Assembly (NCBI RefSeq): GCF_007483665.1
Contig: NZ_ML660190.1
Span: forward strand, 1 to 64,000
DNA: 64,000 nt
Direction of reading: 5' to 3'
Source: Catellatospora sichuanensis
GTDB lineage: Bacteria > Actinomycetota > Actinomycetes > Mycobacteriales > Micromonosporaceae
A program made the position numbers and the translations under genes. The notes below the pieces were generated by a model. That model had not been told where the DNA came from and ran no database searches. It worked only from the letters and a program-made list of their open reading frames with translations. Below are positions 10,901-28,718 of this stretch, piece by piece (position 1 is the first letter of the stretch; each line of letters begins with the position of its first letter).

Positions 10901-12853
10901 CAGGCGCAGCTGGCCCGCGAAGGCCTGCTGCACGGCGGCGACCTGCAGAAGGCCTGCCACACCTACTACGTCTCCGTGTACGAGCTGCTCGACTACGCCC
11001 CCACCCTGGACGGCTACCTCACCGAGGTCGACGCCGGGCTGGCGTTCGCCACCCGCACCGGCAACGACCAGTCCACGGACGTATACCTGCCCTACCGCAG
11101 GCTGGCCGGCATGCTGCGCGGCGAGCCCGCGGCGGCGGACAGCGGCGCGGACCCGCTACCCGAAGCGCTCGCGGGCAACCCGGTGGCCGTATCGAACGTG
11201 CACGTCACCAGGGCGCTGGCGGCGGCGCTGCTCGACGACATGCCCGCCCTGCACCGCCACATCGAAGCCGCCACCGCGCTGCTGCCGGTGAACCCGTCGA
11301 CCTACCCCGTCGCCCAGGCCCGCCTGCTGCGCGGCCTCGACCTGGCCGAACAGGCCCGAACCGGACCGGCGAAGCAGCGCGCCGCGCGGCTGGCCGAGCT
11401 CGACGAGGCGGTGGCCTGGTTCGCCGCGCGGGCCGCGGACGCCCCGGTCAACTTCTCCCACACCCTGCTGCTGCTGCAGGCCGAACGCGCGTGGGCCGGC
11501 GACGACTTCCAGACCGCCGCGCAGTCCTACGACGCCGCCCAGCACGAGGTCGCCGGCCGGGGGCGGCCCTGGCACCGGGCCCTGGCCCTGGAACGCGCCG
11601 CCCGGTTCTACCTGGCTCACGGCATGCAGGTGGCCGGGACCAGCATCCTGAACTCGGCCCGGCACGCGTACCACACCTGGGGTGCGGCTGCGAAGGTCGC
11701 CCAGCTCGACCGCATCCACCCGAGCGCACCGTGGCTGTCCGGCCTGCGGCCGCCGACCAGCGGGCAGGTTCCGGACGCGAGCCCGCAGGCCCCGCTGCTG
11801 TCGGGCACCATCGACCTGCTCGCGATCCTCGCCGCCTCCCAGGCGCTGAGCTCCCAGACCACCTTCGACGGCGTACGCGCCCGCGTCGTCGACGTGCTCA
11901 GCGAGATGACCGGCGCGACCGCCGTGCACCTGCTGCTGTGGGACGACGACCGGCAGCGCTGGACACTGCCCACGTCACCGCCGAACGGCGAGCGGCCCAC
12001 CGTGCCCGCCTCGGTGATCCGCTACGTCGAGCGCACCCGCGAACCGCTCGTCGTCGGCGATGCCACCCGCGACGACCGGTTCTCCCGCGACCCCTACTTC
12101 GGTGAGCTCGGCTGCTGCTCGCTGCTGGTCGTGCCGATCGTCAACCGGGGCACGTGGCAGGCGCTGCTGGTGCTGGAGAACCACCTCATCCGGGAGGCGT
12201 TCTCCGCCGAGCGCCTCGACGCGGTCCGGCTGGTCGCCGGGCAGCTCGCGGTGTCGCTGGACAACGCCTCGGTGTACGCCTCGCTGGAACGCAAGGTCTC
12301 CCAGCGCACCGAGGAACTGACCGCCGCCAACCGGCGGCTCGAGCTGCTCAGCACCACCGACGCGCTCACCGCGCTGGCCAACCGGCGGCGGCTGGAGGAG
12401 ATCCTGCACAGCGAGTGGGAGTCCGCCCAGCGCACCGGCCGGCCGCTGGCCCTGGCGATGGTCGACATCGACCACTTCAAGCTCTACAACGACCATTACG
12501 GCCACCCCGCGGGCGACGAGTGCCTGCAGCGCGTCGCCGCGGTGCTGACCCGCAATCTGCGCGACGGAGACCTGGTCGCCCGGTACGGCGGCGAGGAGTT
12601 CGCGGTGGTCATGCCCGGACTGGACACCGAGGCCGCCCGCCGCACCGCCGAGCGCCTGCGCCTGGCGGTCTCCGGCCTCGCCGAGCCGCACGTGCTCGCG
12701 CGCTCGGGCATCGTCACGGTCAGCATCGGCGTGGCCGCGATGATGCCGCGCCCGGACCGCGACCCCGACGACCTGGTCGGTCTCGCCGACGTCGAGCTCT
12801 ACCGCGCCAAGCGCAACGGCCGCGACCAGGTCCGCGCCGCCGTCGTCGGCTGA
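7961..12853 (+). CDS. Giant sensor: kinase-like domain, AAA ATPase, helical repeats, GAF and GGDEF diguanylate cyclase
   Basis: 1630 residues. About 15-270 is a Ser/Thr-kinase-like domain with HRD at 127-129, but the catalytic loop reads HRDICPGK (K134 where Asn is expected) and the metal motif is DFE (147-149) instead of DFG, so kinase activity is doubtful. About 290-560 is an AAA-type NTPase with Walker A GPAGVGKTS (326-334) and a Walker B-like MFVDDVQWA. A long helical region follows (about 700-1270). A GAF domain (about 1290-1440), a short linker helix and a GGDEF domain complete it. The GGEEF site is at 1543-1547 with an inhibitory RxxD site (1534-1537), so it should make cyclic di-GMP with product inhibition. 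The start is preceded only by a weak GGGCGG. Confidence 0.9.
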   Translation: MGISGEHPAGRPPVDADQVELLHDSDRTRAYRLHLPGHRTVVVKQPLGPDALKRLKHETAILRRLRGAQGVVQVEPTPVIADALVLQDGGGATMDRRPMPLPPGEALSVAAGLADALAAVHRRHVVHRDICPGKIVLTAAGGVLLIDFELASTFAEIRPEFAHHNEIVGTLPYLAPEQTGRTGRPVDQRADLYSLGATMYEMVTGEPPFGTGDPLRLSHAHLARVPVPPAEVGPEVPAALSDVIMHLLEKEPDNRYQTAEGLAYDLGLLRAAAPGETVALRVGAGDVPLRLLPQSRIIGRDPEIRALGAAFADAMTGLSHGLLVSGPAGVGKTSLVDELRPIASGSSGWFVSGKFDQHRRDIEFDGARQAIRALGRLLLAEPEEELADLRQRLRHVLGRNAGLLAAVQPEFALLMGVEPDPTIGDALYAQARMQRIGVDVLTTVASPKRPIVMFVDDVQWATRTTLGFLDMLISEGPPDGLLLVLAYRDDEIDATHPLTAIITRWRQQGVEPQRIALGNLPPASTAELVGDLLQLDATDAEALAEPVAQRTRGNPYDTVELINSLRRSSVLVLGDDGWTWDAGNLSRHLRQANVVDPWTTRLRGLPTRTRLLVEIMACLGGRADMDLLSIADGHPGVETEDLLAPALDEGLLVLEPGEPADAVRFRHDRVNQAILDGLTPSAKSALHLGLARRLAPHPEHAEVAAHQYYAVAEHVHDPDERRRVSALLAYAAEQSLVVSNHAMAERYLAVAVDFADPADKGNLITLQTRRHASLYSLGRLDEADAVYAAIDRLCHHPALHADATLVQVSGLTNQGRAAEAVALGLEMLGHLGFAAPPPERVATEIDEGLELLHRWLDGDTADDLRRPEVTEPELLATAALINRMMAPAFFSNQDTLAWLTLQALRMWVLHGPVATLVGPVAHLTFVTVGRCADYRTGHRALLRVIAVGEARGYEPDTSQARFLYALSTGHWYEPLEDNVQQAQLAREGLLHGGDLQKACHTYYVSVYELLDYAPTLDGYLTEVDAGLAFATRTGNDQSTDVYLPYRRLAGMLRGEPAAADSGADPLPEALAGNPVAVSNVHVTRALAAALLDDMPALHRHIEAATALLPVNPSTYPVAQARLLRGLDLAEQARTGPAKQRAARLAELDEAVAWFAARAADAPVNFSHTLLLLQAERAWAGDDFQTAAQSYDAAQHEVAGRGRPWHRALALERAARFYLAHGMQVAGTSILNSARHAYHTWGAAAKVAQLDRIHPSAPWLSGLRPPTSGQVPDASPQAPLLSGTIDLLAILAASQALSSQTTFDGVRARVVDVLSEMTGATAVHLLLWDDDRQRWTLPTSPPNGERPTVPASVIRYVERTREPLVVGDATRDDRFSRDPYFGELGCCSLLVVPIVNRGTWQALLVLENHLIREAFSAERLDAVRLVAGQLAVSLDNASVYASLERKVSQRTEELTAANRRLELLSTTDALTALANRRRLEEILHSEWESAQRTGRPLALAMVDIDHFKLYNDHYGHPAGDECLQRVAAVLTRNLRDGDLVARYGGEEFAVVMPGLDTEAARRTAERLRLAVSGLAEPHVLARSGIVTVSIGVAAMMPRPDRDPDDLVGLADVELYRAKRNGRDQVRAAVVG

Positions 12854-14561: not shown

Positions 14562-15887
14562 TCAGGCCGACGCGAGCAGCTCCGGTGTGATGTCCGCGAG
14601 GCTCGCGCAGCCGGTCAGGGCCATGGTCAGATCCAGCTCGGCGCGCAGGTTCTGGATCACCTCGCGTACGCCATCCACGCCCGCCAGGGCCAGGCCGTAG
14701 AAGTAGGGCCGGCCGACGCAGACCGCGCGGGCACCCAGGGCCAGCGCCTTGAAGACGTCCGCGCCGCCGCGCACGCCGCTGTCGAACAGCACCGGCACCC
14801 GCCCGCCGACCGCCTCGACGATGCCCGGCAGCGCGTCCAGCGAGCCGGTCGCGCCGTCGACCTGGCGGCCGCCGTGGTTGGACACGATCACCCCGTCCAC
14901 GCCCGCGTCCAGTGCCCGGCGTGCGTCGTCGGCGTGCTGCAGGCCTTTGAGCAGGATCGGCAGCCGGGTCATGGTGCGCAGCCGGGCCAGGTCGCCCCAG
15001 GTCAGGTCCTGCCGCGAGAAGATGTCGAGGAACGTCTCGACCGCGGCGCGCGGCAGCGGCGAGCGCAGATTGCGCAGCATCGGCCCGGGGTGGGTCCGCG
15101 CGATCGAGAACAGGGAGCGCACCGCCGCCGGGGTGACCTTCGGCTTCGGCCCGGTCTTCGGCCGCCCCGCCCGTTCGGCAGCCAGCCGCAGGAACACCGG
15201 GTCGCTGGTGTACTGCGCGATGCCCTGGCCCTGGCTGAACGGCAGCGACCCGAGGTCCAGGTCGCGGGCCCGCCAGCCGAGCACGGTCGTGTCGAGGGTG
15301 ACCACGAGGGCCTCGCAGCCGGACGCCTCCGCGCGGGCCAGGAAGCTCGCGACCAGCTCCTCGGACTTGCTCCAGTACAGCTGGAACCAGCGCGGGGCGT
15401 CCCCCATCGCGGCCGCGCACTGCTCCATCGGAAGGGACGCCTGCGTGGACAGGATGTACGGCACGCCCTCGGCCGCCGCGGCCCGCGCCACGGCCACGTC
15501 GGCCTCGGGGTGGGCCAGTTCGAGCACGCCGATCGGGGCGAGCAGCAGCGGCGACGCGAGCCGGCGGCCGAACAGCTCGACGGACGTGTCTCGCGCCGAC
15601 ACGTCGCGCAGCATCCGGGGCACGATGCGGTGGCGGTCCAGGGCGCGGCGGTTGGCGTCGGCCGTGCCCTCCAACCCGGCGCTGCCGGCGACGTAGGCGT
15701 ACGCCTTGGGCGACAGTGCCCGGGCGGCACGGCGCTCCAGCTCGGAAAACGCGGTCGGCACGGCCGGACGGCCGCCGCTGACCCCGTCGCGGTAGATCAC
15801 GCCCTGCCGCAGCCTGCCCCAGCCGCCCGCGGCACGCACGGCCGGATCGGTGTTGTCGGCGGGCGGCGTCTGGCCGGAGTCGCTCAT
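14562..15887 (-). CDS. FMN-dependent alpha-hydroxy-acid oxidizing protein (lactate oxidase/monooxygenase-like)
   Basis: 441 residues, starting MSDSGQT after GAGGAC. The protein has the full FMN-binding TIM-barrel of the glycolate/lactate oxidase family: YVAGSAGLEG near the N-terminus, SPLLLAPIG, the lysine segment LPILLKGLQ and the active-site SNHGGRQVDG containing the catalytic His and Arg, then DSGVRGGADVFKALALGA for phosphate binding. Such enzymes oxidise L-lactate or related 2-hydroxy acids. The N-terminal extension and the long middle insertion fit lactate 2-monooxygenase-like members, but the substrate cannot be fixed from sequence. It stands alone, convergent with the peptidase gene. 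Confidence 0.88.
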   Translation of the reverse strand: MSDSGQTPPADNTDPAVRAAGGWGRLRQGVIYRDGVSGGRPAVPTAFSELERRAARALSPKAYAYVAGSAGLEGTADANRRALDRHRIVPRMLRDVSARDTSVELFGRRLASPLLLAPIGVLELAHPEADVAVARAAAAEGVPYILSTQASLPMEQCAAAMGDAPRWFQLYWSKSEELVASFLARAEASGCEALVVTLDTTVLGWRARDLDLGSLPFSQGQGIAQYTSDPVFLRLAAERAGRPKTGPKPKVTPAAVRSLFSIARTHPGPMLRNLRSPLPRAAVETFLDIFSRQDLTWGDLARLRTMTRLPILLKGLQHADDARRALDAGVDGVIVSNHGGRQVDGATGSLDALPGIVEAVGGRVPVLFDSGVRGGADVFKALALGARAVCVGRPYFYGLALAGVDGVREVIQNLRAELDLTMALTGCASLADITPELLASA

Positions 15888-16051
15888 CGGGTCCTCGCAG
15901 GTGTGCGTCGGCAGGGCCGCCGCGGCCCGGTGGGCGTGCGGCAGTCCGCAGATCATGCCATCCCGGCGGCCCGTGGCGACGACCGGCGGCCGGGACGCCA
16001 GGTGCTCGGCCGACGCCGAGCCCGGCGGCCGGGCGGCGCGGTGCCGGGTGA

Positions 16052-16876
16052 TCAGGCGACGCGGTGCCGGGCGAGCACGGCGACGGCGCCGCGGGCGGCC
16101 TGGACGGTCTCGGGTCCCGCGTCGCCAGGCAGTTTGGGCAGGCCGGACGTGATGGTGACCTCGTGCCGGAGCACCGGATGGATCAGGGTGCTGGCGACGA
16201 ACAGCGTCGCCAGGCCGTCGTGGGCACTGCCCTCGTCCAGGCGGAACACGTACGCCGGCGCGGCCACCGGGCTGGCGAAGGTCGCGTGGGCGGCCAGGTC
16301 GTCGGCGATGCACCACCACGGCTGGGGCTCGCGGCCGGACCAGTGGTGGTCGCCGAACAGCCCGTGCATCGCGAGCCGGTACCGGTGGCAGACGGTCACC
16401 GCCTCGCGCAGCCGCTGTTCCAGCCGCCCCAGCGTCTCATCGGGCGGGGGCGGGACCAGCAACTCGTCCAGCCGCGCGGACAGCCACCCGGCCAGCACCT
16501 CGTGCAACACGAACCGCCAGGCGTCGGTGGCCGCGCCGGTGGCGAACGTCAGGGCCTCGCGCAGCAGCCGCAGCCGCTCCGCGCAGTCCGGCCACAGTTC
16601 CAGCGGGGGCGGGCCGGTGCACGGCACCGTCGTCGCGTGGCGGCGGGCCGTGAAGTCGACGACGGCCCGCAGCGGGCCGCCCGCGATCAGGTTCACGTCC
16701 TGCCGGTTGTCCGACCACTCCCACTTCGACTGGCCGTCGAGCAGGCTCGTGTACAGCGGATCGGTCAGGCCCTCCTCGTAGAGCCAGCCGCCCGGGGACC
16801 GGGTCGCGGCCCGGGTGACCTCCGTGACGAACAGCAGCGCGTCGGCGTAGCGGCGGGGCGCGTCGCGCACGTCCAT
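16052..16876 (-). CDS. Hypothetical protein, 274 residues
   Basis: Starts MDVRDAPRRYADALLF after GGGAGG on the minus strand. It is a soluble, helix-rich protein with many Trp and His residues (WLYEEGLTDPLY, SKWEWSDNRQDVN, HGLFGDHHWSGREPQPWWC) and no signal peptide or membrane span. I do not recognise the family. It is divergent from the small lipoprotein gene at 17006 and separated by 164 nt, without visible features, from the oxidase gene downstream. Confidence 0.7.
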   Translation of the reverse strand: MDVRDAPRRYADALLFVTEVTRAATRSPGGWLYEEGLTDPLYTSLLDGQSKWEWSDNRQDVNLIAGGPLRAVVDFTARRHATTVPCTGPPPLELWPDCAERLRLLREALTFATGAATDAWRFVLHEVLAGWLSARLDELLVPPPPDETLGRLEQRLREAVTVCHRYRLAMHGLFGDHHWSGREPQPWWCIADDLAAHATFASPVAAPAYVFRLDEGSAHDGLATLFVASTLIHPVLRHEVTITSGLPKLPGDAGPETVQAARGAVAVLARHRVA

Positions 16877-16993
16877 CCGTGCTCCCTCCCTGGCAAGCCC
16901 ACCCACACCGTACCCGCCGTCCGATCCCGACACCGCCCGCGAACCCCGGATCACCGGGTTTGGGACGGGGTCCCGCACCGACGGCGACTGGCC

Positions 16994-16999
16994 TACCCT
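16994..16999 (+). promoter_or_regulatory. Leaderless-type -10 box
   Basis: TACCCT lies 6 nt before GTG 17006 and 12 nt before ATG 17012. This spacing favours a leaderless message starting at the GTG. Confidence 0.4.
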
Positions 17000-17005
17000 G
17001 GCGCG

Positions 17006-17428
17006 GTGACCATGACGTGGCGGTCGTTCGGGCGGTGGCTCGCGGTGCTGATGCTCCTCGGCGGGTGCTCCTGCTGCTGCGGAAACTGGGGCCCGGTCGG
17101 CTTCGCGCCCGACCTCGCCGACGCCGACATCGTCGGCACCTGGGTCAGCGAGGAGGGCGCCCGGCTCGTGCTGCGCGCCGACCACACGTTCAGCACCCAC
17201 TCCCTGGGCGACTGCGCCGACGCCGACGGCGACCACGCGCCCGGCGCGGACGGCGAGGGCCTGTGGACGCTGGACGAGCCCGAGCTCCTGGACCCCTACC
17301 AGCAGCTGAACCTGGCGTACCACCCCTACGGCGAGAGCCTGCAGAGCTGGGGCGCGCAGGACGACGAGATCGTCTACGTGTTCGGCGACACCGACTCCGG
17401 CGGCGTCTGCTACTTCACCCGCGACTAG
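17006..17428 (+). CDS. Small hypothetical lipoprotein
   Basis: 140 residues from GTG 17006; ATG 17012 is an alternative that removes two residues. A charged N-terminus and hydrophobic stretch end in LLGGC, a lipobox, followed by an unusual Cys cluster (CSCCCGNW). The mature part (DIVGTWVSEEGARLVLRADH and following) resembles the short beta-barrel of lipocalin-like proteins that begin with GTW. It has further Cys residues and is acidic. Function is unknown. The gene is monocistronic and divergent from the hypothetical gene at 16052-16876. Confidence 0.75.
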   Translation: MTMTWRSFGRWLAVLMLLGGCSCCCGNWGPVGFAPDLADADIVGTWVSEEGARLVLRADHTFSTHSLGDCADADGDHAPGADGEGLWTLDEPELLDPYQQLNLAYHPYGESLQSWGAQDDEIVYVFGDTDSGGVCYFTRD

Positions 17429-17610
17429 GCCTTGCGACGCCGCCGGCGGCCCGTGCGAAGGCTTCCCTGCCTGACGACGCGCCGTAGTCGCTCGGGCGCA
17501 TACCCATGGCGACCGTCCAGGATAGACTGACGCCACTCTGGCATACAGTGATCGCCCCATCGACGGGGCGTGAAGCACGGTCATCCGGTCCGAGTCTCAC
17601 GGAGCCCTGA

Positions 17611-20600
17611 ATGACGGTCACAGCCCGGTATCAGCCCGGTGCGGTTCGCACTCCTTTCGTGAACCGCGAGGAGCTTCTCGCCGCGTTCGACGCGGAGCTC
17701 GCCGCGACGGGCATGTCGCCGCGACTGCTGGAGCTGACCGGAGTGGGCGGCATCGGCAAGTCCCGCCTGCTGCACGAGCTGATCAAACGGGCCCCGAAGG
17801 ACACGGCTGTCGCGACGCTGAACCTTCAGGAGCCGTCGCAACGCTCGGCACTGGCCGGCCTGGGCTCGCTCCGGGCTCAGTTCGGACGGACGGGCGTCAA
17901 ATTCGACCGTTTCGACCTCGCCTACGGGGTGTGGTGGCAACGCCTCAACCCCCATGTGTCACTGTCCGCCGACCGGCTCAGCTGGGCAGCCGAGAGCGAA
18001 GCGCTCACCAGCGTGCTGGGCGAGGCTGCGGGCCTGCCCGTCTTCGGGGTCGCACTGAAGGTGCTGGACATCGCGGCCCGCAAGTTCAAGCGGTGGAATC
18101 TGATCCGCCACGACGCGACCCTGCTCGAACTCGACGAGCTCACCCTCGACCAGCTCGGCGACGCGGTGGTCTACCTGTTCGCCCGGGACCTCGACGCGCA
18201 TGATCGCTACCTGCTGTGCGTCGACGCCTACGAGGCCCTCGTCGGCGGCGTGGCCAGAGCCGGCACCGCGTCGCTGGCCGACGTCTGGCTGCGCGACCTG
18301 CTCGGACAGCTCGATCGCGGACTCGTGGCGGTCGCCTCTCGGGAGCCGCTGGGCTGGGCCCGCCACGATCCCGGATGGGCGGACCGGATCCGCCCGCTTC
18401 CGGTGGCGTCGCTGCCCTATCCGGCCCGGCGCGACCTGGCGGCGGCCCTCGGTGTCACGGATCCGAACGCCCGCGAGGCGATCGCACGCGACTGTGAGGG
18501 ACTGCCGTTCTACATTCACCTGGCACATGAGTCGGGCCCGGCCGCGAGCCGGTACGCCCACATCGAGGAACGATTCCTTCATCACGTGGAACCCGACATG
18601 GTGCGGGTATTCGAACTGCTGAGCGTCGCGAGGGTTTTCGACCGCGAGATCTTCCGCCGGATCTCACACCACTACGAGCTGCGTGCAGACACTCAGATGT
18701 GGGAACGGCTGATCTCGTACTCGTTCATCGCCACGGCGGGGCCGGACACGCTGCAGATGCACCAGCTGATGGCACGGTCGATCCAGACCCGGCTGAGCCC
18801 CGGTGTGCTGCGCGAACTGCACGAGCTGCTCGGCGAACTGTGGCACCAGCGCGGTGTGACCTCCCGCTCGGCAGACGCGTGGCGGGAGGCCGCACGGCAC
18901 GCCGCCCACGCCGACCCGCAGAATCTCGCTGCCCTGCTCCCCAATGTCGACCGGCTGGCCGCCATGGGCAAGCCGGGCCTGGACGCCATGCGCGCCGACC
19001 TCGAGGAGATGACCGCCGCCGCCCCTGACCCGCACGTCCGGCGGTTCGTGCAGCTGCTTGTCGCTGAGGCGGCGCTGCTGGTGGGAGATGCCGAGACGGC
19101 ACATGCGACCCTGCGCACGCTCAGTGAGCGCCTGCCCGCGGCCGCCGACGACGTGGACGCGAGGCTGGCGTTGGCTGCGGCCAACGCGTTGCGGATCCGC
19201 GGGGAGACCGGTCAAGCGTTGCGCCGGTACGCACAGATATGGCCTGATTACAGTGGTGCCGTGAAACTCGACGCCGGGCTCTGGCACGCCGACCTGGACA
19301 TGGCGCAGGGCAGGTTCGTCGATGCCATCGCCACCGCGGAGGCGGTCGCCTCCGCCACGACACCGGATCGCATCGCCCTGCTGGGCGATCTGGCCCGGCT
19401 GCGCGCCCTGGCGTACCGATTCGCATTCGAGCCGGAACTCGCCTCCGCGGAGCTGAGGATCTCCCGCGAGTTCTACGCGGCCGCCGGGCATGAGGTCGGT
19501 CTGGCGAACATCATGACCAATGAGGCCGAGATCCTGGCGCTGGCCGACCCGGCGGGCGCGGTCGCCGCCGCCAAGGCCGCCGTAGCGGCACAGCGCAAAC
19601 TGGGTGCCGATCACGAGGTCGGCAAGTCCCTGTCCGCGATGGCGCTGGGCCACCTCGGCCTGGCCGAGCTGGAGTCGGCCGACGAGGCACTCGACGAGGC
19701 CGTCGTGGTGCTCGAACGGTCCGGCTATCGGTCCGGGCGCGCCCGTGCCGAGCTGATCAGGGCGTTGTGCCACGCGCGGGCACGCCGACACGACGAGGCC
19801 CTGGCCAGCGCGGTGTGGGCGGTGTCGGAGCTCGAGGCTGTCCAGGTCTACCCGACACTGATCATGGTCGCCGGGACGTTGCTCGACCGCATCGGTTCGC
19901 CGCACCCGGCGGTGACGGCGGCGGTCGACCGGGCGGTCGACGCGCTGCAGCCGCTGCGGGGCATGCCGAGGCTGCGGGCGGCGGTGCACGGCCTCGTGGC
20001 CCGGCTCGTGGCGGACCAATGGGACGACATGTACGAGCAGGCGCGGACCGAAGCCGAGGGCAGCTCCGGGTTCTACAACCACAACGTGCGGGTCGGCCAC
20101 CATCTGGTGCGGGTGCCCATCGCCGGGGCCGATCGCATGGATCTGCACATCTGGCGCGAGGAGGCGGTGCTGGCCGCGGTGAGCCGGCGGCTGGGCTGCG
20201 TCCCGGCACTGCACAGCGTCAGCACCGACCCGGCCTACCAGATCCATGAGTGGGTCGACGGACCCACCCTCAATGACGTGGCTCCTCGGGGCACGGCTCT
20301 TCCGGCAGGCCTGATCGAGCAGATCGCCGTCTTCTTCGCCCGCCTCGAGGCGGTGCCGCCGGGCGACCTGCCACCCGTTCCGCGGGACTGGCCGCGGGAC
20401 GGCGACTCCGCAGGATTCGCCGACCGGCTGCTCGCCACGACCCGGGGCGTGCACTCCGCATTCGCCGGGGACTTCGCCACGCTGTGGCAGCGGCTGGGCA
20501 TACCCACCGATCCGTTTGCCGCGCTCACCCTACGGCAGTTGTCGTCGCGGCCGTTCCGGCTGGTGCACGCCGACGTGCACCGGAAGAACGTGCTGCTGCG

Positions 20601-20982
20601 CGACGGCGCACCGGTATTCCTGGACTGGGAGCTGGCCCTGTCCGGCGACCCGGTCTACGAGCTGGCTGTCCACCTGCACAAGATGGGATACCTGCCCGGC
20701 GAGGACGAGGCGATGCGCTCGGCCTGGGCGGCCGCCTGCGGCGCGCACCGGTGGCCCGGCTGGGCGGTCGACGTCGAGCGCTACCTGGCACACGAGCGGG
20801 TGAAGTCCGTGATCGTGGACTCGGTCCGGTACGCCAAGCTGGTCGCCGCCGACCGCAGCCAGGTGGAGCAGTGCACCGAGACGTTCACGGACAAGCTGGC
20901 GCTGGCCCGGCGGGTGTGGGGTGACCTGCGCCCGGTGGACCCCACCGAGGTGAGGTCGCTGCTGACGGGGTACCTCGCCTGA
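17611..20982 (+). CDS. STAND-type NTPase with helical repeats fused to an APH-like phosphotransferase
   Basis: 1123 residues; ATG follows ACGGAGCC. The N-terminus begins with FVNREELLAAFDAEL and Walker A GVGGIGKS at 44-51, typical of signal-transducing STAND ATPases, with a Walker B-like YLLCVDAYE further on. A winged-helix-like stretch (about 320-400) and TPR-like helices (about 420-800) follow. The C-terminal third is an aminoglycoside-phosphotransferase/choline-kinase fold with the catalytic loop HADVHRKN at 986-993 and the metal motif DWE at 1005-1007, so kinase residues look intact. This domain order is unusual. The substrate is unknown. It converges with the HAD and NDK-like pair, only 14 nt away. 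It could be a regulator, a small-molecule kinase or a defence-type sensor. Confidence 0.85.
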   Translation: MTVTARYQPGAVRTPFVNREELLAAFDAELAATGMSPRLLELTGVGGIGKSRLLHELIKRAPKDTAVATLNLQEPSQRSALAGLGSLRAQFGRTGVKFDRFDLAYGVWWQRLNPHVSLSADRLSWAAESEALTSVLGEAAGLPVFGVALKVLDIAARKFKRWNLIRHDATLLELDELTLDQLGDAVVYLFARDLDAHDRYLLCVDAYEALVGGVARAGTASLADVWLRDLLGQLDRGLVAVASREPLGWARHDPGWADRIRPLPVASLPYPARRDLAAALGVTDPNAREAIARDCEGLPFYIHLAHESGPAASRYAHIEERFLHHVEPDMVRVFELLSVARVFDREIFRRISHHYELRADTQMWERLISYSFIATAGPDTLQMHQLMARSIQTRLSPGVLRELHELLGELWHQRGVTSRSADAWREAARHAAHADPQNLAALLPNVDRLAAMGKPGLDAMRADLEEMTAAAPDPHVRRFVQLLVAEAALLVGDAETAHATLRTLSERLPAAADDVDARLALAAANALRIRGETGQALRRYAQIWPDYSGAVKLDAGLWHADLDMAQGRFVDAIATAEAVASATTPDRIALLGDLARLRALAYRFAFEPELASAELRISREFYAAAGHEVGLANIMTNEAEILALADPAGAVAAAKAAVAAQRKLGADHEVGKSLSAMALGHLGLAELESADEALDEAVVVLERSGYRSGRARAELIRALCHARARRHDEALASAVWAVSELEAVQVYPTLIMVAGTLLDRIGSPHPAVTAAVDRAVDALQPLRGMPRLRAAVHGLVARLVADQWDDMYEQARTEAEGSSGFYNHNVRVGHHLVRVPIAGADRMDLHIWREEAVLAAVSRRLGCVPALHSVSTDPAYQIHEWVDGPTLNDVAPRGTALPAGLIEQIAVFFARLEAVPPGDLPPVPRDWPRDGDSAGFADRLLATTRGVHSAFAGDFATLWQRLGIPTDPFAALTLRQLSSRPFRLVHADVHRKNVLLRDGAPVFLDWELALSGDPVYELAVHLHKMGYLPGEDEAMRSAWAAACGAHRWPGWAVDVERYLAHERVKSVIVDSVRYAKLVAADRSQVEQCTETFTDKLALARRVWGDLRPVDPTEVRSLLTGYLA

Positions 20983-20996
20983 GTCGCCGGAGGCGG

Positions 20997-21785
20997 TCAG
21001 AACCAGCGCTCCAGCACCCGCGCCACACCGTCATCCCGGTTCGCGGCCGTCACCTCGGCCGCCACGGCGATCACGTCAGGGTGGGCGTTGGCCACCGCCA
21101 CGCCATGATCGACGCGTACGAGCATCGGGATGTCGTTGGGCATGTCCCCGAACGCCACCGTCTCACCGGCGGCGATGCCCAGGTGATCGGCAGCCCAAGC
21201 CAGACCGGACCCCTTGTCGACCCCGGCTGCAGCCAGTTCGATCAGCCCTCCCGCCTGTGAGAACGTCACGCTTACCGTGTCGCCGAACATCGCGGCGGCG
21301 GTGGCGGCCAGCGCCGCACTGGTCATGCCGGGATGACTGACGACGATCTTCACGCCCGCCCTCGCCAGCATCTCCTCGCGGCTGGCAGCCTCACACTTGA
21401 TGGACCGAACGGCGCGGAAGCCATGCTCGGCAAGCAGTGCCGGCCTGCCCTCCATGCTCTCCACGGCGTATGCGCACCCCGGAAGATCCGTATCGAACGC
21501 CGTCACGACAGCCCGCAAGGACCCCGGGGTCAATGTGACGACGCGCAGCGCACGCTCGCGTCGCATGTCGTACACGACTGCCCCGTTCGAGCAGACGGCC
21601 AGACCCGCGACACCCGCTCTGGCCGCGATCTTGCCCAGCGTGCGCGCCGGACGGCCGCTGGCGAGCACGAACGGCACACCGGCGGCGACCACTCGCCTGA
21701 CCACGGCGGCGGTGCGGACGCTGACCATGTTGGCATCGTCGAGGAGTGTTCCGTCGGCATCGGTCGCCACGAGCCGCGGCGCCAT
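20997..21785 (-). CDS. HAD-IIB (Cof-type) phosphatase
   Basis: 262 residues. The nucleophile motif is DADGT with D9 and D11 near the N-terminus, followed by the LASGRP motif II, a C2B-type cap, and the C-terminal AFGDMPNDIPML (motif IV) with VANAHPDV. This is a complete Cof/sugar-phosphatase-type HAD hydrolase. Its ATG overlaps the stop of the upstream NDK-like gene (TGATG), so the two are translationally coupled. The 3' end lies 14 nt from the end of the STAND-APH gene. A phosphatase next to a kinase and an NDK-like protein suggests a shared phosphorylated substrate, but that is inference. Confidence 0.9.
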   Translation of the reverse strand: MAPRLVATDADGTLLDDANMVSVRTAAVVRRVVAAGVPFVLASGRPARTLGKIAARAGVAGLAVCSNGAVVYDMRRERALRVVTLTPGSLRAVVTAFDTDLPGCAYAVESMEGRPALLAEHGFRAVRSIKCEAASREEMLARAGVKIVVSHPGMTSAALAATAAAMFGDTVSVTFSQAGGLIELAAAGVDKGSGLAWAADHLGIAAGETVAFGDMPNDIPMLVRVDHGVAVANAHPDVIAVAAEVTAANRDDGVARVLERWF

Positions 21786-22810
21786 CACGCGACCTCGGCC
21801 GGCGGCTGGTCGAGCATCCGGCCGTGCCCGGCCTGCCACAGACCGCGCCCGGTGCGGCTGATCAGGCAACGCGCGTCGGGCACATCGTGTTGCACATACT
21901 CGCTGGCGACGACGGTCACTGCCCAGCTCCGCTGATCGACGCCGCAGCCCGCGAGGTCGGCGCACCACCGGTCCCAGTCAAGATACTGACCCTCGGATGC
22001 ACGCATGATCGCAGCACGTGCCCGCGCCGCAGCAGGGCCTGTGCGCGCGTTGCGACACTCGGCCCTGTCCAGCTCGGCCAACACCTCGCGGACGGCGTCG
22101 TCAACCGACAGCGAGCGGGCGGGAAAGTCGTCGTACAGCCGCGAGATGTACGGCTCCGGGTCGACCCGTGTCCCCGTCGCCACGCGTTCGGCCAGCTTCG
22201 CGTAGAGCTGACGCAAGGTGTCGCGCTCGAAGATGATGCCAAGCTCGCGCACCACGTCCATGGGCTCGTCCGGACAGTGCACGACGACCATGATGCGGTT
22301 CGGGGCACCCAACTGCGACCGCAGGTGGTCGGCGCGCCGGTCGGGCGGAAATGCGGACCCCTTGTGCCGGCTCAGCCGCGAACTGGCCGGGATCGCCAAC
22401 GGCTCTCGGACGTCCAGCAAGACGAGGCTCAGTACGTCGGTGCGGTAGTGCAGCCGGTCGCCGACCGCCAGCCGGTCGAAGGACGCCACATTCCACTGAT
22501 ATCGCCACAGCTCACGGATCATCATGCGGTCGTACCGAAAACGGTGTGCGTGCAACGGCGCGTAGTCGAGCCTGGCCAGGACCTCCACGCATTGACGTGC
22601 CCTGCGTCCGATGATCCCTTCCGGACGAAGCGTGAGCAGGGCGATTCGCTGCATCAGCCAGCCCGCGTGCGTGCCGAGAACGTCCACTGCCGTACGCCAG
22701 CTCTCCCGGAAATGGGTGTCGGTCACGAAGTAGTCGAACTTCTTCTGCTGCGTCGTCAGTACTCGCCAGCCCTCGTCGGTGTGCAGGCGCCGCATGTAGG
22801 CATCGAGCAT
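21785..22810 (-). CDS. Divergent nucleoside-diphosphate-kinase-like protein
   Basis: 341 residues, start ATG 6 nt after GGAG. About 56-195 can be laid over the NDK fold: IALLTLRPEGIIGRR matches the first strand (Arg in place of the usual KPD lysine), DVLSLVLLDV the central strand, and NRIMVVVHCPDEPMDVVREL the active-site loop with H178 at the place of the phospho-histidine. The C-terminal about 140 residues (Trp-rich, ending GRMLDQPPAEVA) match nothing I know. It heads the operon with the HAD gene and shares one base with it. NDK activity is unproven because several consensus residues differ. Confidence 0.6.
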   Translation of the reverse strand: MLDAYMRRLHTDEGWRVLTTQQKKFDYFVTDTHFRESWRTAVDVLGTHAGWLMQRIALLTLRPEGIIGRRARQCVEVLARLDYAPLHAHRFRYDRMMIRELWRYQWNVASFDRLAVGDRLHYRTDVLSLVLLDVREPLAIPASSRLSRHKGSAFPPDRRADHLRSQLGAPNRIMVVVHCPDEPMDVVRELGIIFERDTLRQLYAKLAERVATGTRVDPEPYISRLYDDFPARSLSVDDAVREVLAELDRAECRNARTGPAAARARAAIMRASEGQYLDWDRWCADLAGCGVDQRSWAVTVVASEYVQHDVPDARCLISRTGRGLWQAGHGRMLDQPPAEVA

Positions 22811-23148
22811 TCTCGGCTCCACCAGTGCAGGAACGCAGACCTGCCGACAGGGGCCTGCTGGTCGATCCAGTCTGCCCGTCCGCATCGACCTGCGTCGCCG
22901 TCTGTCGCCCCCACGACGCCTCCATCCGGCCGACGCCAGGGCCCACGGCACCGCCCGCGGCCGGGCGGGCAAGGCCCGTGAGCGGTTCTTAACCGGTACG
23001 CAACGCGGCCGTCCTGCCGCTGTCACAGCCCGATCGTGTGCTTCTTGAACCCGCGGACCGCAGCCCTCCCACGGCGCGGCGTGGACCGGCGCACGGCCAC
23101 CCGTCGAGGTGGCAGGCGCGGCCGCCCGACTCCGATCGGAGCCACGCC
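22811..23148. other. Divergent intergenic region
   Basis: 338 nt separate the NDK-like operon from the allophanate hydrolase gene. I see no gene here. It must hold both promoters, but no strong -35/-10 pair stands out. CGGTTcttAACCG (22983-22995) is a small inverted repeat that might be an operator for the nitrogen module. Confidence 0.4.
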
Positions 23149-24774
23149 ATGGGACAACCTCTCTGGATCACCAGACTCCCCGACGCCGCCGTCGACGCGT
23201 ACCGGCGGGACAGCCCCGGCGGCCCGCTGGCCGGGGCCCGTCTGGCGATCAAGGACAACCTCGACCTGGCCGGGGTGCCGACCACGGCCGCCTGCCCGGC
23301 GCTGGACCGCCCGGCCGTCTCGTCCGCGGTCGCGGTGACCCGGCTGATCGACGCGGGCGCGATCCCCGTCGGCAAGACCAACATGGACCAGTTCGCCACC
23401 GGCCTGGTCGGCACGCGCACGCCGTACGGGGCCTGCCACAGCATCGCCGACCCCGCCCACATCAGCGGCGGCAGCAGTTCCGGCAGCGCGATCGCCGTCG
23501 CCACGGGTGAGGCCGAACTGGCCCTGGGCACCGACACCGCCGGTTCCGGCCGGGTGCCGGCGGCCTTCAACGGCCTCGTCGGGCTCAAACCGACCCGAGG
23601 GCTGGTGTCCACCTCGGGCCTGCTGCCGGCCTGTCGCTCGCTGGACTGCGTGACCACGTTCACCTGCACCGTCGCCGAGGCCAGGACGGCCCTGGACGCG
23701 CTGGCGGCCTACGACGTCGGCGATCCGTGGTCGCGGGCGCGGCCGCCGCTGCCGCCGCCGGGGGTCGCCGCGCGGATGCGCGTCATCGGCGTACCGGCCG
23801 GGGATCTCGATCTCGACCCGCCGCACGCCGCAGCCTGGCAGCGCGCCCTGGCGCACGCCCGCGGCGTCGCCGCGCACCTGGTGCCGGTGGACGTTTCGGC
23901 GTTCCTGGCCGCGGCGCGGCTGCTCTACGAGGGCCCGTGGGTCGCCGAGCGCTGGGCGGCGTTCGGTGACCTGCTCGAACCCGACGGCCCACAGTTGGAT
24001 CCCATCGTGCGCGCGATCGTGCTGCCCGGACGCGACCTGCGCGCCGCGGACGCGTTCGCCGCCGCCGACCGGCTCGCGGCGCTTCGCCGGGCCACCGAAC
24101 ACGTCTGGCACGACATCGACGCGCTGCTGCTGCCGGTCACCCCGGGGCATCCGACGTTCGACGAGGTGGCGGCCAGGCCGGTGGCGGTGAATTCGCGGCT
24201 GGGCACGTACACCAACTTCGTGAACCTGCTCGACCTGTGCGCGGTGGCGCTGCCCGCGGGCGAGCGCACGGACGGCCTGCCGTTCGGGGTGCAGCTGGTC
24301 GCGCCCGCGTTCGCCGACGAGCCGCTGCTGGACCTGGCCGAACGCTGGACCGGCGGGCGGCTGCCGGAGCGGGTCCCGGCGGGGGCCCGGGTCGCGGTGG
24401 TGGGCGCGCACCTGACCGGTATGCCGCTGCACCCGCAGCTGCTCGGCCTGGGCGCGCGGCTGGCCCACCGGGCCCGTACGGCGGGCGGCTACCGGCTCTA
24501 CCACCTGTCCGGACCCGGGGTGCACCGCCCGGCACTGGTGCACACCGGGGACGGGCCCGCGGGCGGCATCGCGGTCGAGGTCTACGACCTGCCCGAACAA
24601 GGACTCGGGGCGCTGCTGGGCAGCGTGCCCGCGCCGCTGGGGCTGGGCCGGGTCGTGCTCGACGACGGCAGCGAGGTCACCGGGTTCATCGCCGAGGCCC
24701 CGCGGCTGGGCGACGCGGCCGACATCACCCACTTCGGCGGGTGGCGGGCGGCCAGCAGCCCGGCCGTGCCGTGA
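23149..24774 (+). CDS. atzF: Allophanate hydrolase
   Basis: 541 residues; ATG 7 nt after GGAG. The N-terminal amidase-signature domain (about 1-410) has the Lys-cisSer-Ser triad: K35 in [10 protein letters not shown]109 in [12 protein letters not shown]133 in [10 protein letters not shown]. The C-terminal about 110 residues ([13 protein letters not shown] to HFGGWRAAS) match the second domain of AtzF-type allophanate hydrolases. The enzyme converts allophanate to ammonia and CO2. It is a stand-alone AtzF with no urea carboxylase nearby, so allophanate is expected from biuret (made by the hydrolases at 25586-27048) and not from urea carboxylation. Confidence 0.93.
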
Positions 24775-24848
24775 CGGCGCTCGGCCACGATCCCGGCTCG
24801 CGCGGGCACGTGATCGCCCGGCGGCAGGGTGCTGGCACACTCGGTGCC

Positions 24849-25499
24849 GTGACGGACACGGCCCCCGCGAACGGCGAGATCGAGAGCTACAGCCTGGTCG
24901 AGCTCGCGGTGACCCGGCTGCGCCGGGAGATCCTCAGCGGACGCTCCGAGCCGGGCGAGCGACTGGTCGAGGAGCAGCTGACCCGGCGGCTGGGCATCAG
25001 CCGGGCCCCGCTACGCGAGGCGTTGCGCCTGCTGGGGCAGCAAGGGCTGGTCGAGCATGTGCCGCGGCGCGGGGCGCGGGTGGCCACGCTGTCCGACCGG
25101 GACGTGCAGGAGCTGTACGCCGTACGCGACATGCTGGAACGCCACGCGGTCGAGCAGGCGCTGAGCACCCCGGCAAAGCTCGACGGGCTGCGGGCGGCGG
25201 TGGACCGGATGCGAGAGGCGGCCGCGACCGGGGACCAGCTGGAGGTCGCCAACGCGCACCGGGCCTTCCACGTGAGCCTGGTGGCGCTGTCCGGCAACGG
25301 GCAGCTCACCGCGATTTACGAGTCGATCCTGGTGAAGCTCCAGCTGTACATGGCGATCAACCTGCGCCGCGAGGCCGAGCTGGCGCACGCCGACGACGGG
25401 GTGCACCGGCACGAGCGGCTGCTGGAGGCGGTCGCGACCGGCGACCCGGCCGTGGTGCTCACCGCGCTGGCCGGGCACGGCGCAAGGTCCTATCTGTAG
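24849..25499 (+). CDS. GntR-family regulator with FCD domain
   Basis: 216 residues from GTG 24849, which has CACACT seven bases upstream and no Shine-Dalgarno. The winged helix-turn-helix covers about 15-80 ([20 protein letters not shown], then [20 protein letters not shown]). The FCD ligand domain follows, with His and acidic residues suitable for metal binding ([21 protein letters not shown]). It sits between allophanate hydrolase and the biuret hydrolases on the same strand, so it most likely controls this nitrogen module in response to a pathway intermediate. The effector is not evident. Confidence 0.88.
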
Positions 25500-25501
25500 T
25501 C

Positions 25502-25527
25502 ACCTGGCCCCATCGTGGGCACCAGGT
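25502..25527. terminator. Hairpin between gntR and biuret hydrolase genes
   Basis: ACCTGG (25502-25507) pairs with CCAGGT (25522-25527), with CCC/GGG inside. It may terminate the gntR transcript or serve as an operator for the hydrolase promoter. Confidence 0.4.
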
Positions 25528-25572
25528 CATGCACACGTTACCGAGCCGACCAGACCCTGAAACAGTTCGGTC

Positions 25573-25578
25573 GACAAT
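25573..25578 (+). promoter_or_regulatory. Leaderless-type -10 box of the biuret hydrolase gene
   Basis: GACAAT lies 7 nt before ATG 25586, and no Shine-Dalgarno is present. Confidence 0.35.
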
Positions 25579-25585
25579 CGACAGT

Positions 25586-26314
25586 ATGCAAACCCTGGTG
25601 CCCCAACCTGATCCGTCGACCGGCGTACGCATCGGGCCGGTGCAGGCCGACCCTTACCGGTGGCCGTACGACGGCTCGGTGCCCGTCGCGCGGACGGCAC
25701 TGCTGTGCATCGACTGGCAGACCGACTTCTGCGGACCGGGCGGCTACGTCGACGCGATGGGCTACGACATCGCGCTGACCCGGGCCGGGCTGCCCGCCAC
25801 CGCCAAGCTGCTCGACCACGTGCGCTCGCTGGGCATGCTGGTCGTGCACACCCGCGAGGGCCACGACCCGGACCTGTCCGACCTGCCCGCCAACAAGCGC
25901 TGGCGCTCGGCGCGGATCGGCGCGGAGATCGGCGGGCCCGGCCCGTGCGGGCGCATCCTGGTCAAGGGCGAGCCGGGCTGGGAGATCGTGCCCGAGGTCG
26001 CCCCGGCCCCCGGCGAGGTGATCGTCGACAAGCCCGGCAAGGGCGCGTTCTACGCCACCAACCTGGACCTGGTGCTGCGTACCAACGGCATCACGCACCT
26101 GATCCTGACCGGCATCACCACGGACGTCTGCGTGCACACCACGATGCGCGAGGCCAACGACCGCGGCTACGAGTGCCTGATCCTGTCGGACTGCACGGGC
26201 GCCACCGACCCCGGCAACCACGCCGCGGCCCTGCACATGGTCACTATGCAGGGCGGCGTCTTCGGCTGCGTGGCGACGTCCGACGACGTCATCGCGGCCA
26301 CCACCACCTCCTGA
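25586..26314 (+). CDS. biuH: Biuret hydrolase (isochorismatase-like cysteine hydrolase)
   Basis: 242 residues. The isochorismatase-like fold carries the Asp-Lys-Cys triad: D43 in [11 protein letters not shown]149 in [11 protein letters not shown]182 in [11 protein letters not shown]. Long stretches recall BiuH of rhizobia, such as [40 protein letters not shown] and [20 protein letters not shown]. BiuH cleaves biuret to allophanate and ammonia, which fits the allophanate hydrolase upstream. An upstream in-frame ATG at 25529 is rejected because family similarity begins after 25586 and a -10 box precedes that start. Confidence 0.82.
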
Positions 26315-26349
26315 CGGACCGTTCCGCCTCACAGAAGGCGAGCACCCTT

Positions 26350-27048
26350 TTGAGTACCCACGCCACCGTCGACGCGATGCCGTCGCCGTACACGTTCGAC
26401 CCATCGACCACCGCGCTGATCGTCATCGACATGCAGCGCGACTTCCTGGAACCCGGCGGCTTCGGGGAGACGCTGGGCAACGACGTGAACCAGCTGCGCT
26501 CGGCCATCGCGCCGACCGAGGCCCTGCTCGGCGCGTGCCGCGCGGTCGGCCTGACGATCATCCACACCCGCGAGGGGCACCTGCCCGACCTGTCGGACTG
26601 CCCGCCGGCGAAGCTGCACCGCGGCGCGGCCTCGAAACGCATCGGTGACCCCGGCCCCAAGGGCCGCATCCTGATCCGCGGCGAGTACGGCCACGACATC
26701 GTCGACGAGCTCGCCCCGCGGCCTGGCGAACCGGTGATCGACAAGCCCGGCAAGGGCGCCTTCTACGCCACCGAGCTGGGCGAGCTGCTGGAGAGCCGGG
26801 GCATCCGCAGCCTGATCGTCACCGGGGTCACCACCGAGGTGTGCGTGCACACCACGGTGCGCGAGGCCAATGACCGCGGCTACGAGTGCCTGGTGCTGTC
26901 GGACTGCGTGGGCTCGTACTTCCCGGAGTTCCAGCGCGTCGGGCTCCAGATGATCGCCGCCCAGGGCGGGATCTTCGGCTGGGTGGCGAAGTCACCGGCC
27001 TTCATCGGGGCGCTGCAGCGCAGCGCCGCACTGCCGCAAGCCGCCTGA
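26350..27048 (+). CDS. Second BiuH-like cysteine hydrolase (possible triuret hydrolase)
   Basis: 232 residues if started at TTG 26350, which follows AGAAGG; ATG 26377 would give 223 residues but has no ribosome binding site. The triad is D27 (IVIDMQRDF), K132 ([10 protein letters not shown]) and C165 ([11 protein letters not shown]). It is a clear paralogue of the preceding gene, 35 nt downstream, but with a different substrate loop ([20 protein letters not shown]) and C-terminus. Triuret hydrolases (TrtA) are known paralogues of BiuH, so triuret or another ureido compound is plausible. The exact substrate is unknown. Confidence 0.75.
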
Positions 27049-27074
27049 CCCCCCGCCTCGAAAGCAGGATGCCC

Positions 27075-28718
27075 ATGACCACACCCACCCCCGCGGCCGT
27101 GAAACTGCCGCACTGGGTCCGCGGCGACACCAACGCCTTCTTCGGTTTCGGCGTGAACGTGCTCGTCAACGTGCTGACGCTGACCACGCTGTGCCTGTTC
27201 GTGATCAACCTGTCCGAGGGCGACGTGTTCGGCACGATCCTGCCCGCGCTCGGCATCGCCCTGGTCTTCGGCAACGTGTACTACACGATCCTGGCCCGCC
27301 GCCTGGCCGCCAAGGAGGGCCGCACCGACGTCACCGCGCTGCCGTACGGGCCCAGCGTGCCGCACATGTTCATCGTCATCTTCGTGATCATGCTGCCGAT
27401 CTACCTGAAGACCAAAGACCCGATGCTGGCCTGGCAGGCCGGTGTGGCCTGGGCGTTCATCATCGGCGTCATCGTGCTCATCGGCGCGTTCGTCGGCCCG
27501 TACATCCGCAGGTACACCCCGCGGGCCGCGCTGCTGGGCACCCTGGCCGGCATCTCCATCACGTTCATCTCGATGAACCCCGCCGGGCGCATGTGGGACC
27601 TGGCCTGGGTCGCGCTGCCCGTGTTCGCGTTGCTGCTGATCGGCCTGATGACCAACGTCAGGCTGCCGTTCAACTTCCCCATCGGCCTGGCCGCGCTGCT
27701 GCTGGGCACCGCGATCGGCTGGATCGGCGGGGTCATGTCGGTGCCCGACGTCACCGCCGCCGCGAAGACCATCGCGTTCGCGCTGCCGGACCTGAGGTTC
27801 GGCCTGCTGTTCGACGGCCTCAACGAGATGGCGCCGCTGCTGGCCACCGCGATCCCGCTGGGCGTCTACAACTTCACCGAGGCGATGACCAACGTGGAGA
27901 GCGCCGCCACCGCCGGCGACAACTACAACCTGCGCAGCGTGCTGCTGGCCGACGGCATCGGCGCGGTCATCGGCTCTCTGCTCGGCTCGCCGTTCCCGCC
28001 CGCCGTGTACGTCGGGCACCCCGGGTGGAAGGCCGCGGGCGGCCGCACCGGCTACTCCATGGCCACCGGCATCGTCATCGCGCTGCTCTGCTTCCTGGGC
28101 ATGTTCGGCCTGCTCGCGGCGATCTTCCCGACCGCGGCGATCGTGCCGATCCTGCTCTACATCGGCCTGCTCATCGGTGCCCAGGCCTTCCAGGCGACAC
28201 CACGCGCCCACGCCGCCGCGGTGGTCGCCGCGCTCATCCCCAACCTGGCCTCCTGGGCCACCGGGCAGATCGACAACGCGCTCGCCGCGGCGGGCACCTC
28301 GGCCGCCGCGGTCGGCGACCAGGCGCTGGCCGGCGCGGGCGTGGTCTACCACGGCCTGCTGGTGCTCGGGCAGGGCGCGATCCTGGCCGGCCTGGTCTTC
28401 GGCGCGATCGTGGTGTTCATCATCGACCGGAAGTTCCTGCACGCCGGGATCTTCGCCTCGGTCGGCGCGCTGCTCACCTTCGTCGGGCTGATCCACGGCG
28501 AGAAGGTCGAGTGGAACGCCAACGGTCCGGTTTCCCTGGGCTACCTGTTCGTCGCCGTCGTCTGCGCGATCTTCCACCTCGGCAAGCACTCCCCACGCGA
28601 ACCCGACCCCGAGGAGCTCGCCCTCGACCGGTTGCACGGCGGCGCGGACGCACCCGCGCCGGTCTCGCCGGCACCGGCCGCAGCGGCGGAGCCGGACCGG
28701 GCCGCGGCCGCGGCCTGA
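27075..28718 (+). CDS. NCS2/AzgA-like permease
   Basis: 547 residues with about a dozen or more hydrophobic spans from residue 20 to 510 and a Pro/Ala-rich cytoplasmic tail. Motifs such as TDVTALPYGPSVPHMFIV, NFTEAMTNVESA and GSPFPPAVYVGHPGWKA resemble the nucleobase/ascorbate (NCS2, AzgA-like) transporters. ATG 27075 is 6 nt after AGCAGG; an ATG two codons earlier has no spacing for that site. It lies 26 nt after the second hydrolase gene and probably imports the nitrogen compound degraded by the cluster, perhaps biuret, triuret or a nucleobase. Confidence 0.8.
   Translation: MTTPTPAAVKLPHWVRGDTNAFFGFGVNVLVNVLTLTTLCLFVINLSEGDVFGTILPALGIALVFGNVYYTILARRLAAKEGRTDVTALPYGPSVPHMFIVIFVIMLPIYLKTKDPMLAWQAGVAWAFIIGVIVLIGAFVGPYIRRYTPRAALLGTLAGISITFISMNPAGRMWDLAWVALPVFALLLIGLMTNVRLPFNFPIGLAALLLGTAIGWIGGVMSVPDVTAAAKTIAFALPDLRFGLLFDGLNEMAPLLATAIPLGVYNFTEAMTNVESAATAGDNYNLRSVLLADGIGAVIGSLLGSPFPPAVYVGHPGWKAAGGRTGYSMATGIVIALLCFLGMFGLLAAIFPTAAIVPILLYIGLLIGAQAFQATPRAHAAAVVAALIPNLASWATGQIDNALAAAGTSAAAVGDQALAGAGVVYHGLLVLGQGAILAGLVFGAIVVFIIDRKFLHAGIFASVGALLTFVGLIHGEKVEWNANGPVSLGYLFVAVVCAIFHLGKHSPREPDPEELALDRLHGGADAPAPVSPAPAAAAEPDRAAAAA

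Follow-up and report, generated by a model that had tools for sequence, protein, structure and literature searches.

The 64,000-nucleotide stretch of Catellatospora sichuanensis DNA analysed here (contig NZ_ML660190.1, positions 1 to 64,000; hereafter the window) contains a block of just three genes, at ~17426-22977, which was gained in the window genome or lost elsewhere as one unit. The genes encode a 1123-residue protein joining a STAND NTPase, TPR-like helices and an APH-fold kinase (STAND-APH), a Cof-type HAD-IIB phosphatase (HAD) and a divergent protein of nucleoside diphosphate kinase fold (NDK-like). We read the block as a horizontally moving accessory cassette in which an NLR-like switch would gate the APH kinase, with the HAD and NDK-like proteins working on the same compound in a conflict or stress setting; we give this reading a probability of about 0.42. 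Its features are as follows.

17426-22977, no strand: whole inserted block (cassette), with limits taken from the empty sites of genomes G500 and G479
17511-17610, plus strand: upstream segment, partly conserved in three cassettes (e.g. 17511-17529 and 17546-17554; three-cassette alignment), a likely candidate for the promoter region of STAND-APH
17611-20982, plus strand: STAND-TPR-APH protein, 1123 aa (open reading frame, Pfam, homologues, alignment, structure model, Foldseek)
17656-18795, plus strand: STAND/NB-ARC-like NTPase and subsequent helical/winged-helix-like part, ~residues 16-395 (conserved motifs; weak AAA_16)
18796-20010, plus strand: TPR-like helical superhelix, ~residues 396-800
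20011-20982, plus strand: APH-fold kinase domain, residues 801-1123, with catalytic loop H986-N993 and DWE 1005-1007
20997-21785, minus strand: Cof-type HAD-IIB phosphatase, 262 aa (Pfam and TIGRFAM matches, motifs in sequence)
21785-22810, minus strand: NDK-fold protein, 341 aa, with an NDK core at ~residues 50-214, helical extensions and a catalytic-type His178 (22277-22279)

All three reading frames are present in the window. The 3' end of STAND-APH lies 14 bases from the convergent HAD gene, and the NDK-like stop and the HAD start have one base in common. A preliminary description of this DNA had reported the frames, the gap, the overlap and the HADVHRKN and DWE motifs exactly so. Because homologues keep both the gene order and full reading frames, a chance arrangement is excluded.

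Comparison within the genus shows how the block is distributed. Genomes were sampled at four levels (genus, 11; family, 300; order, 397; class, 394), scoring two candidates per genome for STAND-APH in the genus and class samples and five for NDK-like in the class. STAND-APH and NDK-like occur together in 3/11 genus genomes and are both absent from the other 8, in agreement with a DNA search for the block, which used window 14562-25499 as query against the 10 other genus genomes. In G500, the flanks 14562-17425/17426 and 22976/22978-25499 adjoin with 14 bases between them; in G479, the same two flanks adjoin with 10 bases between, and flank identity at these empty sites is 89-94%. It is this direct adjacency of the flanks in congeners that identifies gain or loss as a single unit. 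The search recovered the block in G454 and G438 only, where it stands among other genes at another locus with 78-79% DNA identity to the window. Gene order there is that of the window, the 3' ends of STAND-APH and HAD overlap in the gene calls, and the proteins share 81% (STAND-APH), 73% (HAD) and 68-69% (NDK-like) identity with those of the window. One flank of this second site is found on contig C22 of the window genome, without the cassette. A clean empty site for the second locus was not found among the genomes compared: one side adjoins a conserved gene, and the other flank lies ~13-20 kb off in other genomes with both on one contig. Neither a target-site duplication nor a terminal repeat was seen at the cassette edges, and the three-gene block holds no transposase gene. 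Taken together, the empty sites, the whole block at a second locus and the joint presence or absence in the genus support the view that the three genes are one moving unit.

Codon use is consistent with this picture. The GC content at third codon positions (GC3) is 0.878 for STAND-APH, 0.826 for HAD and 0.839 for NDK-like, against 0.855-0.993 for the 18 other genes called in 7001-37000, 17 of which reach at least 0.907; in G454 and G438 the cassette genes have values of 0.93-0.955. The low GC3 of all three genes relative to their surroundings points to a recent arrival of the cassette in the window genome. The preliminary description had noted relaxed codon use in the NDK-like gene alone; the relaxation is real and extends to all three genes, and the transfer it proposed is supported by the empty sites, the second locus in two congeners and the low GC3.

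The STAND-TPR-APH protein was aligned with 25 of its 120 listed homologues. In all 26 sequences we found G44, G46-S51, D205, G297, P299 and H384 conserved, positions that we take to be the Walker A motif (44-51), the Walker B Asp, the GxP motif and the MHD-like His of the STAND feature list. In Pfam the NTPase part has no match above cut-off (AAA_16, 24.8 bits versus 32.6). The top Foldseek match of the protein is 6mfv, a solved STAND-TPR protein (E 1.6e-9), with a TM-score (TMt) of just 0.24 over the whole chain; the structure model is of low confidence in parts of residues 140-390. The STAND assignment of the NTPase is based on the invariant motifs together with this top match. At the C-terminus, the APH family (PF01636) matches at 7e-18 (65.7 bits versus a cut-off of 23.2). 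Both catalytic elements, HADVHRKN at residues 986-993 and DWE at 1005-1007, are complete, and H986, D988, H990, R991, N993, D1005, W1006 and E1007 are invariant in 26/26 sequences of the same alignment. This APH part forms a distinct subfamily with the signature GFYNxNVRV...MDLxIWPE. The host genome has 43 APH-family matches and no second STAND-APH or NDK-like gene was found in it; its other long APH frames are therefore other proteins.

Across the class, the STAND-APH profile is matched by 41/394 genomes at 1e-50. The STAND part is present in 19 of these; by our reading of the individual rows it is fused to APH in nine (one at a contig end) and encoded as adjacent STAND-TPR and APH genes in ten. 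The other matches comprise 16 APH-only cases in genus g140, five that are APH-only or partial and one short N-terminal fragment. In every split case (10/10) the APH gene is the next one downstream in the same orientation, and in 7/10 the gene calls overlap by 4 bases. This arrangement indicates that the fusion reflects a real partnership and is good evidence that the STAND-TPR and APH parts work together. Matches number 8/397 genomes in the order sample (three of them full length) and 5/300 in the family sample (one over the C-terminal half only).

In genus g55 (loci L064-L068), a domain closely related to this APH subfamily (34-39% identity) was also observed at about residues 505-860 of the translated segments, within single open frames of 9,599-18,658 residues; by eye, a stretch resembling a zinc-peptidase/DUF4157-type motif follows it. 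Giant APH-matching frames had been considered as nonribosomal peptide synthetases, an assignment dropped on reading the translations; in the L065 segment Pfam recognized neither APH nor any other family.

The HAD is a complete member of the Cof-type HAD-IIB family, as read from its sequence. Hydrolase_3 matches it over its full length (1.1e-43 in Pfam, scanned as the longer 323-aa frame), TIGR01484 scores 66.7 bits against a cut-off of 41.8 and TIGR00099 falls just under its own (134.5 versus 137). The four HAD motifs are intact (DADGT, ASGRP, DKGSG and GDMPND). Its three closest relatives, from Catellatospora sp. IY07-71, Dactylosporangium sp. NPDC000521 and a 4160-base JGI contig, share 67-73% identity, and the remainder share at most 56% among the best 120 of 2482. 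These three are listed on contigs equal in size to those of three NDK-like relatives.

For the NDK-like protein, the predicted structure confirms the assignment and profile comparison supports it: the modelled NDK fold was recovered by structure comparison with 14% identity in the structural alignment, and the profile match to NDK has a probability of 78% (E 1.7e-5). Pfam gave no match at 0.1 for the protein, PF00334 included, when its longer 413-aa frame was scanned; two distant relatives do match PF00334, at 32.2 and 41.5 bits against a cut-off of 27, and the family is also recorded for two listed homologues. His178, Arg164, Lys150, Asp181 and Glu182 are kept in 34/34 NDK-like sequences. A separate canonical NDK is encoded in the host genome.

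Relatives of the NDK-like gene outside the cassette occur in two contexts. Most of 50 relatives' loci belong to a single gene set of Streptomyces type; an AfsA-like gene is present in 39/51 loci, a UbiA-like gene in 39/51 and a PEP-utilising kinase in 38/51 (window included); names were taken from Pfam on one member each, and the UbiA-like score is under cut-off. Loci L016-L060 also contain PPDK_N/PEP-utilisers, a nitroreductase and, by eye, nucleotidyltransferase-like and epimerase-like proteins, and this set possibly represents a signal or secondary metabolite pathway. The second context (four named Streptomyces loci, L018, L023, L026 and L059) contains a thymidylate-kinase-like gene and two HAD genes, one of them of Cof type and related to the window HAD; formyltransferase-like and, by eye, aminotransferase-like genes were also seen there.

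How far the three-gene form extends was assessed in the same samples. In the class the NDK-like gene is present in 8/394 genomes, and the window genome alone has both it and the STAND part. Among the 34 genomes searched for it, the NDK-like gene is present in three, all within the genus, and in 0/21 of the non-genus genomes with a STAND part. In genus g109, 5/60 genomes have a distant NDK-like gene, and the two g109 genomes with STAND-type matches lack one. The entries of Dactylosporangium sp. NPDC000521 for STAND-APH, HAD and NDK-like are each on a 532905-base contig, and P0125 (NDK-like) and P0136 (HAD) are both on the 4160-base JGI contig; linkage in both cases is deduced from equal contig size. 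The same coincidence for HAD P0172 with STAND P0006 (both 7626 bases) and for P0190 with P0101 (both 4001) was rejected as linkage, the sources being different. The broader STAND-APH family thus includes the three-gene form as a narrowly distributed variant: the linkage suggested in the preliminary description is supported in the genus, as a single moving unit, and is not supported in the sampled genomes as a general three-gene system.

The mechanism that we favour begins with the large protein as an NLR-like switch, which combines nucleotide-binding motifs of STAND/NB-ARC type with a TPR superhelix and a C-terminal APH-fold kinase. The TPR part would bind a ligand or protein, the NTPase would flip from ADP to ATP and oligomerise, and the APH kinase would then be switched on to phosphorylate a small molecule. 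The convergent pair of genes would supply an NDK-fold phosphotransferase with an active-site His, adding or relaying phosphate on the APH compound, and a Cof-type phosphatase that removes phosphate and could serve as the off-switch. Accessory proteins and kinase would thus probably act on the same phospho-metabolite. Rather than housekeeping, the likeliest setting may be a response to conflict or stress (phage, toxin or antibiotic). Pairing of a phosphatase with a kinase recurs elsewhere: in 7/7 loci read, from the 16 g140 genomes with an APH-only match, tandem APH domains of the same family have a HAD gene of a different subclass a few genes away. A shared phosphorylated metabolite, as proposed in the preliminary description, is supported as an idea by this recurrence. 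The g140 loci (L104-L110) encode tandem APH-APH proteins of 705-722 aa, with separate genes in L109 and L110 and, by eye, GntR-like regulators near.

Several observations weigh against this proposal. Neither this HAD nor the NDK-like gene stands beside any of the 21 non-genus STAND loci, so neither is needed for the core function of STAND-APH. In the APH part, the beta-3 Lys position is apparently Arg in 13/13 sequences (position assigned by eye). Relative to the host NDK, the NDK-like protein has Arg62 at the KPD Lys, Val175 at the Asn before His and Pro180 at the Ser after His, positions whose roles we take to be those of canonical NDK; with these residues replaced, its enzyme activity is not certain. 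The insertion site itself is variable: in G468 the flanks also adjoin, with a junction from 16942 to 22978 and 15 bases between, and window 16943-17425 is absent together with a 140-aa open reading frame (17006-17428, no Pfam family), while the left-flank match ends at ~16942 in G486 and G493 too, with no strong right-flank match there. The block is therefore perhaps not the sole moving part. Finally, no recurrent defence family was found around related loci beyond weak mad2 (three members, best 2.5e-12), among 25/97 matched families listed.

A first alternative, unlikely but by a small margin the most probable of the rivals, is that STAND-APH is the functional unit and that HAD and NDK-like are unrelated genes carried along by chance. 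Besides the absence of the NDK-like gene from non-genus genomes with a STAND part, this explanation draws on the fused or split state of STAND-APH outside the genus without recurrent partners; a comparison of 23 non-genus loci (two of them APH-only) showed no conserved neighbourhood. Set against it are the convergent order kept in three genomes and two loci despite 68-81% protein identity, the apparent co-occurrence of the three genes in Dactylosporangium as well and the atypical GC3 common to all three window genes.

Barely less probable is anti-phage abortive infection, in which STAND-TPR would sense phage, APH would phosphorylate an essential small molecule so that growth stops, and HAD and NDK-like would protect the uninfected cell. 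The STAND-TPR architecture and a patchy, mobile distribution fit such a role. Defence genes were sought with PADLOC at 1e-5 among 118 of 132 references from related loci (up to three genes each side, at least 90 aa), a set that left out the NDK-like and HAD genes of the L114 cassette, all L111 and L112 neighbours and the window's own neighbours and kept the NDK-like and HAD genes of the L113 cassette. Among these 118 proteins 97 families were matched. The few strong matches, including one neighbour to BrxHI/BrxHII (3.8e-159) and a protein-kinase-like gene of L129 matched alike by the PD-T4-6, mad6 and C3a189 models, speak for this explanation, yet each is an isolated case and the kinase models are general ones; UvrD-helicase-type matches were seen in L117 when 10 of the 118 neighbours were inspected. 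The neighbourhood check for defence genes suggested in the preliminary description thus turned up individual strong matches and, apart from mad2, nothing recurrent. The three cassette proteins have no convincing PADLOC match, the marginal one being DpdD for the NDK-like protein (E 0.014). Avs proteins carry an N-terminal effector, and STAND-APH lacks one of this type.

Sensor-gated detoxification or self-resistance, in which APH would inactivate an antibiotic or toxin sensed by the TPR part, is somewhat more doubtful. In the PDB, the APH domain has a macrolide 2'-phosphotransferase and a hygromycin-B 4-O-kinase among its relatives by sequence; corramycin phosphotransferase and Cph001, presumably a capreomycin kinase, are among its Foldseek matches. 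The best PDB sequence relative, the macrolide kinase, however, reaches just 3.3e-6, metabolic kinases, the choline kinase LicA among them, head the structural list, and a HAD that reversed the modification would undo the resistance. More improbable still is a new mode of NLR signalling in bacteria, a mobile immune cassette in which an NB-ARC-TPR receptor would make a small-molecule phospho-signal with its own APH kinase, a dedicated NDK-fold protein converting it and a dedicated HAD removing it.

Around the cassette, the nearest flanking genes are FMN_dh and two without a family on the left, and Amidase and GntR/FCD on the right (Pfam); neither the three-gene block nor these five scanned genes include a vWA or MoxR/VMAP/iSTAND partner. 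Directly to the right, 23038-28718 encodes an amidase with an allophanate hydrolase C-terminal domain, a GntR/FCD regulator and, by eye, two isochorismatase-like proteins and one permease-like protein, apparently a nitrogen-compound catabolic cluster. Further to the left, a 1630-residue protein (7961-12853) combines, by eye, protein-kinase-like, AAA/STAND-like ATPase, GAF-like and GGDEF domains. Overall, the observations of the preliminary description are confirmed and its interpretation is partly supported.

The component parts of the cassette are of known kinds; their combination is new. In the open-access papers searched, judged by titles and the starts of abstracts, we found no paper on a STAND-TPR-APH protein or on the NDK-like family. 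With STAND-TPR proteins (6mfv; MalT-like and AP-ATPase/NB-ARC proteins), STAND-APH has in common what we take to be the family motifs, namely Walker A GxGGxGKS, the Walker B Asp, GxP and the MHD-like His, as well as the TPR superhelix. The output of known members is a DNA-binding domain or an N-terminal death effector, whereas that of STAND-APH is a C-terminal APH kinase. The effectors known for bacterial NLR-like proteins are mostly nucleases, NADases, proteases or membrane effectors.

A published parallel lies in conflict systems. In the parts consulted, Kaur et al. 2020 (PMC7159879) place active APH-like kinases among the effectors of STAND-linked conflict systems, a point in favour of abortive infection, and an aminoglycoside-kinase-like effector is again among those given in the consulted parts of Kaur et al. 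2021 (PMC8195603). Compared with the 2020 systems as described in those parts, the block lacks vWA/MoxR/VMAP partners and joins its kinase to a STAND-TPR protein of its own; a term search of the main text of that paper did not return 'nucleoside diphosphate'.

Each of the three predicted enzymes can likewise be set beside its own family. With APH superfamily kinases (macrolide and corramycin phosphotransferases, LicA) the kinase has in common the fold, HxDxHxxN and the D-W-E residues, and it differs in being fused to or encoded beside STAND-TPR and in its own signature. The NDK-like protein has the predicted fold and the active-site His of nucleoside diphosphate kinase, from which it departs in its length of 341 aa, its helical extensions at both ends, its low structural-alignment identity and its lack of a Pfam match. 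The HAD resembles Cof-type HAD-IIB phosphatases (YidA-like) in its full-length match and four motifs; its close relatives are few and apparently lie on the contigs of NDK-like relatives, as equal contig size suggests. A receptor-like switch that is joined to a small-molecule kinase and travels with a matching phosphatase and an NDK-fold enzyme would indicate that phospho-metabolites serve as signals or that metabolites are modified under regulation. Experiments can make direct use of the fused and split forms, and because the cassette is discrete and has a natural empty site, its gain and loss can be tested cleanly.

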